NCBI RefSeq assembly: GCF_000730285.1
Contig: NZ_CP007174.1
Location: 1,612,001-1,676,000 of the forward strand
DNA: 64,000 bases
Origin: Candidatus Nitrososphaera evergladensis SR1
GTDB taxonomy: Archaea; Thermoproteota; Nitrososphaeria; Nitrososphaerales; Nitrososphaeraceae
Reading direction: 5' to 3'
Position numbers and translations under genes: made by a program. Below are positions 20,483 through 26,951 of the stretch, one piece after another (positions within the stretch are counted from its first letter, which is position 1; each line of letters starts with the position of its first letter). The notes below the pieces were generated by a model. The model ran no database searches. It was not told where the DNA came from and saw nothing but the letters and a program-made list of their open reading frames with translations.

Positions 20483-20561
20483 CTACAAGATCTTTAGCAG
20501 ACGCGGTGCCTTCTATGTTTTTTGAAAAGGTTCATTAATGATAGTTTTGCATGCATTTCCA

Positions 20562-20801
20562 ATGGCAGAGGCATACATTCTCATCAATTGCGAACTTGGT
20601 TCTGAAGACAACGTCATCAAGGAACTGAAGGCAATATCCGGCGTCTCGGAAGTAAAGGGCGTCTTTGGAGTCTATGACATTATCGCCAGAGTGAACGCGT
20701 CAAACGACGAGGACTTGAAAAAAGCTGTCGGCAAGATCCGCGGCCACCACGGCATCAAGTCAAGCCTCACCATGATGGTAATAGAAGGACAGGGCACGTA
20801 G
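20562..20801 (+). CDS. Stand-alone Lrp/AsnC ligand-binding (RAM) domain
   Basis: This is a 79-residue beta-alpha-beta-beta-alpha-beta domain without an HTH: AEAYILINCELGSED, ISGVSEVKGVFGVYDII and TMMVIEG match the RAM domain of Lrp/AsnC regulators. Such SraA-like proteins oligomerise and may modulate full-length Lrp proteins by binding amino acids. The first in-frame ATG is eight codons upstream, but MAEAYIL matches the domain start. Confidence 0.87.
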   Translation: MAEAYILINCELGSEDNVIKELKAISGVSEVKGVFGVYDIIARVNASNDEDLKKAVGKIRGHHGIKSSLTMMVIEGQGT

Positions 20802-20839
20802 AGCTACCTGCCCTCCCTCCCCCCTCCGTGCTACATTTC

Positions 20840-20847
20840 TTTTAAAC
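20840..20847 (+). promoter_or_regulatory. TATA-like box with no CDS in the correct place
   Basis: TTTTAAAC follows a C-rich tract (CCCTCCCTCCCCCC). The same arrangement, C-rich tract then TACAT then CTTAAATG, precedes the zinc-ribbon gene starting at 26730, where the box lies 27 bases before the start. Here the predicted transcription start is near 20868, exactly where a foldable sequence begins. Confidence 0.4.
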
Positions 20848-20868
20848 ATCCTGCGATAAACAATTCTT

Positions 20869-20926
20869 GCCTGTAGAACGTTGCCAACGATTCTTCCCAA
20901 TCCCCCGATTGGAGTGTTCTACAGGC
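20869..20926 (+). ncRNA. Candidate small structured RNA
   Basis: An 11-base perfect inverted repeat (GCCTGTAGAAC at 20869-20879 and GTTCTACAGGC at 20916-20926) encloses a 6-bp hairpin CCAATC-CCCC-GATTGG and a short CGTT/AACG pairing. A TATA-like box lies about 25 bases before the first arm. It is between two convergent genes, so it may instead be a 3' structure of either transcript. It does not fit tRNA, C/D or H/ACA box patterns that I can recognise. Confidence 0.35.
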
Positions 20927-20937
20927 TCACCCCCGAT

Positions 20938-21339
20938 CTATGGCTCGATTACGCCGGTGGTTTCAAGAGGCTTGCGGCCCATGAACCCTTCGTCCTTACC
21001 GTGCCAGAACTTGATTTCGTCCTCGCCGGCCTTCCAGCACAGCCACACCTCCTCGTCAAAGCGCTTTGAGGGAAAATCAAGCAGCCCCTCGTCCACGCTC
21101 TTTAGCATCACGCCCGTCGCCTCTAGCGTCTCGATAGCCTTGTATAGGTTGGTAATTGCGGTGTTTAGCTCTTGCTTCTTTTTCATAAAGCGCTCAAAAT
21201 CGCTGCCAGAATCGACTATCATTTGCAGTTCCTGCTGGAGCACCATCACATGGTTTTTCTGCGCGACAATGCCGGCAAACATGCGCTTTACCTCCGGCAG
21301 TGCCTTGTTTGCCGTCTGGGGCGTATAGAGCGTAAACAT
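20938..21339 (-). CDS. DUF2203 family protein
   Basis: The 133-residue protein has a long helical N-terminal half and the C-terminal signature EVWLCWKAGEDEIKFWHG followed by GFMGRKPL, which is characteristic of DUF2203. Its function is unknown; the family is found in archaea and some bacteria. The start is an ATG (MFTLYTPQTANK). The stop lies next to the foldable intergenic element. Confidence 0.85.
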   Translation of the reverse strand: MFTLYTPQTANKALPEVKRMFAGIVAQKNHVMVLQQELQMIVDSGSDFERFMKKKQELNTAITNLYKAIETLEATGVMLKSVDEGLLDFPSKRFDEEVWLCWKAGEDEIKFWHGKDEGFMGRKPLETTGVIEP

Positions 21340-26657: not shown

Positions 26658-26729
26658 AACAAACGACGGCCCCTCCCTCCCCCCCGCAGTGCCCTACATC
26701 TTAAATGCGGCCGGCGGCATACCAGCCTT

Positions 26730-26951
26730 GTGGTAGCGGCATCGCCAGAAACCAAGCTTGAAGGGCTGGAAGCAAAAGAAGAAAAAGAGAATGAGAATGA
26801 TGAAAGCAAAGAAGAAAGCGTAGCGCTGTTGATGGAGCAGGACATCGAATGCCCTCGGTGCCACGGCTCGATGGTGCTATGCTCGGACTTTGACAGCCTC
26901 TACTATAGCTGCGAAGAATGCGACTTTACTCTGTATACAATAAAAAGATGA
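26730..26951 (+). CDS. Small acidic zinc-ribbon protein
   Basis: The 73-residue protein has an acidic, coiled N-terminal half rich in Glu, Asn and Lys followed by a zinc ribbon: ECPRCHGSMVLC then YYSCEECDF. The GTG start fits a leaderless transcript from CTTAAATG at 26700-26706, which follows a C-rich tract similar to that at 20811. The function is unknown; such proteins are often transcription- or translation-linked. Confidence 0.72.
   Translation: MVAASPETKLEGLEAKEEKENENDESKEESVALLMEQDIECPRCHGSMVLCSDFDSLYYSCEECDFTLYTIKR

Follow-up and report, generated by a model that had tools for sequence, protein, structure and literature searches.

The question raised by this locus is whether a short stretch of inverted-repeat DNA in a Nitrososphaera genome encodes an RNA in its own right and, if it does, which process that RNA would serve. 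The stretch lies in a window of 64 kb (G000:C1:1612001-1676000; the window is the whole stretch of DNA that was analysed) of a source genome that consists of a single contig of 2.95 Mb. The 58-base sequence with an 11-bp closing stem that the original prediction had pointed out is present exactly as claimed (20869-20926, plus strand), and a direct reading of the sequence shows a perfect closing stem that encloses an inner 6-bp hairpin with a tetraloop. The third pairing, which had been put forward as possible, corresponds to a weak hairpin directly behind the 5' arm of the stem. The parts of the predicted RNA are the following:

20867-20938, plus strand: predicted small RNA of about 70 nt (covariance-model match), with the start placed to within about 2 nt and an uncertain 3' end
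20869-20879, plus strand: 5' arm of the closing stem, GCCTGTAGAAC, complementary to the 3' arm GTTCTACAGGC at 11 of 11 positions
20880-20888, plus strand: possible third, weak hairpin GTT-GCC-AAC (folds and alignment)
20897-20912, plus strand: inner hairpin CCAATC-CCCC-GATTGG with a C-rich loop; homologs have an inner hairpin or an open loop that exposes UCCC(C)
20916-20926, plus strand: 3' arm of the closing stem, GTTCTACAGGC, pairing with the 5' arm, with covariation in 11 sequences
20927-20938, plus strand: C-rich 3' tail TCACCCCCGATC, which resembles CCCCUUUU in several homologs (alignment of 11 copies)

The element has a folding energy of -23.4 kcal/mol on the plus strand, against -10.5 +/- 2.6 for shuffled sequences (z = -5.0), and its minus strand folds equally well (z = -5.05), so that folding by itself assigns no strand. 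Moreover, two places in the 64 kb (one of which is counted in two registers) hold a perfect 11-bp inverted repeat that encloses a short loop, where shuffling gives a mean of 1.4. Such a repeat alone is thus not exceptional in a stretch of this length, and the case depends on comparative evidence.

Plain DNA similarity revealed clear relatives of the element in two genomes (G015, 88%; G014, 72%) and a faint one in a third (G012). A covariance model made from two sequences (R1) recovered seven copies, one per genome (G000, G015, G014, G007, G011, G016 and G012), a model made from seven (R2) added four more, in G017 (two), G005 and G003, and the search with a model made from all eleven (R3) added no convincing further copy. 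The E-values of these searches are rough, and a sequence from which a model was built is bound to match it; out of sample, five copies were new with R1 and four with R2. In total, the covariance models yielded 11 copies in 10 of the 18 Nitrososphaera genomes, the match in the source genome being located at contig positions 1632867-1632938 (window 20867-20938) and the one in G015 at G015:C1:496848-496917, and no copy in 52 other genomes of the family. In G008, a nearly complete Nitrososphaera genome, the promoter motif described below occurs at many places and the RNA is not detectable by the covariance models. The RNA is present once per genome, except in the draft genome G017, which has two diverged copies (L180 and L183), both preceded by the promoter.

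The closing stem is 99.2% paired across the 11 sequences, and compensatory changes, on both sides of the pair, occur at 4 of its 11 pairs. For instance, the tenth pair changes from A-U to G-C in five sequences and the sixth from U-A to C-G in three. The stem holds 11 doubly changed cells, against a mean of 3.8 after shuffling, and none of 500 shuffles (a count that is not a probability, as the covariation comes from related sequences) matched the covariation score or the percentage paired. When the partner is shifted by 1-3 columns the pairing of the stem falls to 27-46%. Preservation of the stem in related genomes, on which the original prediction had staked itself, was thus found in 11 copies, with compensatory changes. 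The inner hairpins are far less conserved, and two subtypes differ inside the stem: the viennensis-type copies contain a GUUGCCAAC-like sequence and a hairpin whose loop is UCCCCC; in copies of the gargensis type the position of the small hairpin (the equivalent of 20880-20888) is taken by a GCCA(A)/(U)UGGC hairpin, and the loop is UCCC(C). GCCA or a close variant of it, the C-run of the loop and the C-run of the 3' tail are kept in all copies, the pairing of GCCA differing by subtype. The tail ends in CCCCUUUU in some copies, and this end, similar in several homologs, may act as a terminator.

The region upstream of the RNA contains a promoter of defined build, of which a second copy lies elsewhere in the window:

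20812-20822, plus strand: C-box CCTCCCTCCCC, with its core in 11 of 11 homologs and also upstream of radA, dinB-fusion and SPL-like genes
20828-20831, plus strand: GTGC element, 5 nt past the C-box core, at a position conserved both among the aligned promoters and in the genus-wide motif
20840-20845, plus strand: TATA box TTTTAA, which reads TTATAA in most relatives, located 8 nt past GTGC in the gap-free promoter alignment
26671-26706, plus strand: second copy of the promoter type (C-box, GTGC, TTAAAT), belonging to the zinc-ribbon ORF at 26730-26951; the motif is also present at the orthologs L238, L252 and L264

In all 11 copies the distance from the end of the motif CCCTCCCC-N5-GTGC-N8-TTATAA (matched with 0-3 mismatches) to the start of the RNA model is exactly 21 nt, so that the TATA-like box of the original prediction proves to be kept at a fixed distance, and the sequences upstream of the first seven copies align without a gap over 65 nt. 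As the promoter was not modelled in R1 or R2, the 21-nt spacing independently supports the copies, the strand and the start. The start near 20868 that had been proposed agrees with the position of the start codon in leaderless-type genes under the same promoter; the starts of the downstream genes lie mostly 22-29 nt past the motif, as in leaderless transcripts, and the RNA begins at the same offset. The arrangement of a C-rich tract, TACAT and a TATA box before the gene at 26730 is real as well (CCCTCCCTCCCC at 26671-26682, then GTGCCCTACAT and TTAAAT). What had been missed is that the C-rich tract marks, as far as can be read from the sequence, a promoter common to radA, dinB and other repair genes. 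We propose that the stretch from 20867 to about 20938 on the plus strand is a gene in its own right, which encodes a small non-coding RNA of Nitrososphaera; its transcription would begin near 20866-20868, driven by a TATA promoter of its own. With a covarying stem, a fixed promoter distance and differing gene neighbourhoods (see below) in support of it, we have very little doubt that the locus holds a genuine gene for a non-coding RNA, served by its own promoter.

In the 18 Nitrososphaera genomes the motif was found at 156 sites when up to 3 mismatches were accepted, against 11 for reversed-pattern controls, and at 99 sites against 0 with up to 2 mismatches. The 52 other genomes of the family gave 11 sites against 4 controls, and four of the 11 were located in a single genome (G020). 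The 31-bp signature has sites in every Nitrososphaera genome examined, and judging from these counts the C-box promoter is essentially genus-specific. The genes downstream were read and their domains assigned by Pfam, the paralogs of radA and dinB being used as controls. In all 16 radA orthologs (Rad51 domain; identity 86-100%) the motif lies 21-29 nt upstream of the start codon. It is absent from 13 other RadA-like genes, of which 12 have an identity of 48-52% and one has 78%. Likewise, six DUF72-DinB (IMS) fusion polymerases have the motif, which precedes none of the 9 copies of the second DinB paralog. A shared element is thus found upstream of repair genes across genomes, with the paralogs being devoid of it. 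The motif also precedes genes for SPL-like radical-SAM proteins ('SPL-like' is our own reading, where Pfam gives Radical_SAM), a RadA-like protein, DUF763, DprA, SWIM and small zinc-ribbon proteins, some TnpB proteins and small proteins without an assigned function. The sites in the source genome include radA and the DinB fusion, SPL-like and RadA-like genes; DUF763 and DprA are found behind the motif in relatives. We consider it highly probable that the RNA and the repair genes form a common promoter set. Since the promoter is common to radA, the DUF72-DinB translesion polymerase, the SPL-like gene and further genes of DNA processing, co-regulation with DNA repair is most likely for the RNA, and induction by damage is probable. 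Induction of both the RNA and the regulon by DNA damage seems a reasonable expectation, with the trigger read from gene content only.

The survey of motif sites yielded a number of separate observations. The motif-driven DinB carries an N-terminal DUF72 domain (L225, L251, L262 and L245 in G000, G014, G015 and G011, respectively) and has a length of 611 aa in G000. The window ORF at 26730-26951 encodes a 73-aa zinc-ribbon-like protein without a Pfam match that is motif-driven in G000, G011, G014 and G015, and its upstream sequence makes it a likely further, still nameless member of this promoter set. TnpB-like genes with a radA-type C-box promoter occur in G000, G011 and G014, where many of them were found (L227, L228, L241, L244, L248, L249, L250, L256, L259 and L260), a pattern that looks as if insertion elements took over the repair promoter. 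Most of the motif sites that were tested for folding did no better than shuffles. The stretch past the motif at L224 (G000:C1:212560-212590), which has no convincing ORF, folds moderately better (z -2.8), and two sites in G014 (L253 and L257) precede a related sequence (84% over 123 nt) with AGTCGATGAGGACTG and no obvious long ORF, which may be a second RNA or a small repeat.

With respect to function, the unpaired UCCC/CCCC runs in the loop and the tail of the copies are the kind of motif that typifies a UCCC-type small RNA. The rigid 11-bp stem would display two C-rich motifs in unpaired form, namely the UCCCC of the inner loop and the CCCC of the 3' tail. These would pair with G-rich stretches of target mRNAs during repair and lower the translation or the stability of those mRNAs, as UCCC-motif small RNAs do in Firmicutes. 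Action by base-pairing is proposed tentatively, by analogy, and action by binding a protein appears more doubtful. The genome has few SD-like sites: GGAG was counted at 7.7% of 300 gene starts, which had been called crudely, and at 3.3% of control positions. An RNA that pairs with SD sites would thus act on a small number of mRNAs, which weakens the masking of SD sites as a broad mechanism. As a whole, the reading of the locus as an independent small-RNA gene that is co-regulated with repair and acts through pairing of its C-rich motifs has, in our judgement, a slightly better than even chance of being correct.

The main rival keeps the same RNA gene and the same regulon and takes the C-rich loop and tail for a protein-binding decoy or scaffold that mimics the C-box, for example by titrating a C-box factor and so feeding back on the repair regulon. 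The RNA sequence CCCUCCCC indeed resembles the DNA sequence CCCTCCCC, the C-box core itself lies inside the loop of the copies from G007 (CCCUCCCCC) and G012 (CCCCUCCCCC), and both the retention of two C-runs in the copies and the scarcity of SD sites suit such a role. However, most copies hold only UCCC(C) and not the full C-box, the C-box factor is itself hypothetical, and a protein that binds double-stranded DNA need not bind single-stranded RNA; we therefore consider the decoy rather unlikely. In a wider proposal that comprises both modes of action, Nitrososphaera would have an SOS-like damage regulon on the C-box/TATA promoter, with the RNA as its small-RNA arm, which would either silence mRNAs by means of its C-rich motifs or, as a mimic of the site, exert feedback on the C-box factor. 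On this proposal we are evenly divided.

The tie to DNA damage would disappear if the RNA and its promoter were real but the C-box were a general strong or stress promoter element. The TnpB transposases and the uncharacterised small proteins among the downstream genes are compatible with that idea. Nevertheless, the 2.95-Mb source genome holds only about a dozen motif sites, several repair genes are among them, and the paralogs of radA and dinB are without the motif, which makes a general element improbable.

The genes around the RNA bear on the question whether the element could belong to its surroundings:

20538-20801, plus strand: Lrp/AsnC ligand-binding-domain protein (PF01037), upstream neighbour, outside the RNA unit; lrp orthologs exist without an adjacent RNA
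20938-21339, minus strand: DUF2203 protein, convergent downstream neighbour, outside the RNA unit; orthologs exist without an adjacent RNA

These two genes flank the element in the convergent orientation that had been described for them. The RNA is located downstream of lrp in G000, G015, G014 and G012, in G007 some 1.4 kb with other genes separates it from lrp, and in G016, as at the equivalent locus of G011, it adjoins a two-domain AsnC/NirDL-like gene and not lrp. The gene neighbourhood is, by this comparison, not the conserved feature of the RNA. A reading of the element as a hairpin of a 3' UTR, or as a terminator that serves lrp and DUF2203 from both directions, would explain the location between convergent genes, the symmetric stem that folds on both strands and the 3' end that is C-rich and then U-rich in some homologs. 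It does not explain the element's own promoter at fixed spacing, its presence in G011 and G016, where neither convergent gene adjoins, or the lrp and DUF2203 orthologs that lack it, and the own promoter and changing context lead us to reject it as highly improbable. Mobile or repeated DNA (a palindromic repeat or MITE), which the inverted-repeat shape and the variable context might suggest, is rejected as even more far-fetched, since all but one draft genome have a single copy and conservation spans promoter and RNA, with compensatory changes. Separately, an imperfect palindrome around CATTAATG was noticed at 20525-20548, immediately 5' of the Lrp-like gene, possibly an operator.

Other classes of element were rejected as well. 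The plus-strand frame from the TTG at 20867 is open for 153 codons, but the two closest copies differ by a 2-nt indel and the copy lengths vary without regard to frame, which disposes of a coding leader and of conserved coding. At the gathering thresholds of Rfam 15 only tRNA passes in the window, and a permissive search at the element region gave chance-level scores. An H/ACA guide RNA was dismissed on inspection of the 11 copies, which have no conserved ACA 3' of the stem and whose inner loop is short, and differs between copies, on its 3' side. The same holds for a C/D box guide RNA, as RUGAUGA and CUGA are not conserved in the aligned copies and no C/D family of Rfam matched above threshold.

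The RNA has no match in Rfam, and we regard it as a family of small RNAs that is new, as is its association with this promoter. Literature searches, of incomplete coverage, returned no small RNA, DNA-damage promoter element or regulon for Nitrososphaera. Ammonia-oxidising archaea are among the most abundant soil archaea, and for these organisms the searches brought up neither a DNA-damage regulon nor a promoter element nor a regulatory RNA. The present set provides a candidate for all three, namely a damage regulon, a 31-bp promoter signature and a structured RNA within the set. If true, this suggests that the programme with which an ammonia-oxidising soil archaeon and its relatives meet DNA damage has a regulatory RNA among its parts. 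It makes testable a coordinated damage response in archaea outside the Sulfolobales, a factor that reads the C-box, and the involvement of an RNA.

The RNA can be compared with several known systems. The UCCC-motif small RNAs of the Firmicutes (RsaE, RNAIII, SprD, FsrA and LhrC) pair through C-rich motifs with G-rich sites in mRNAs, and LhrC, which has several UCCC-type motifs, is induced by stress (PMC4132741). The Nitrososphaera RNA is likewise a small stem-loop RNA with exposed single-stranded C-rich motifs, whereas it is archaeal, has no sequence homology to them, meets few SD sites and engages in a pairing that is here predicted. Among archaea, precedent for a trans-acting small RNA is given by sRNA162 of Methanosarcina mazei (PMC3510493), and the stress-related small RNAs of Haloferax have been reviewed (PMC12186497). 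The likeness consists of an independent archaeal small-RNA gene with a possible role in stress; the lineage is a different one, Rfam revealed no homology, and a DNA-repair promoter element is not reported for those RNAs in the accounts cited. The DNA-damage regulon of the Sulfolobales is built on an ANTTTC element (DDRE) that is bound by Orc1-2 (PMC9738581). It resembles the Nitrososphaera set in that archaeal damage-response genes have a common short element in their upstream promoter region. The element is another one, however: no conserved ANTTTC was found in the promoter alignment of the first seven copies, CCCTCCCC-N5-GTGC-N8-TATA is essentially genus-specific, and the set includes a small RNA, radA and a DinB fusion. 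In the SOS response of bacteria, a recombinase and a Y-family polymerase are under the control of one promoter element. Although the Nitrososphaera set differs from it in having no LexA-type box, a different sequence, an archaeal TATA promoter and a damage induction that is here deduced, it shares with the SOS response the placement of a recombinase and a Y-family polymerase behind one element.
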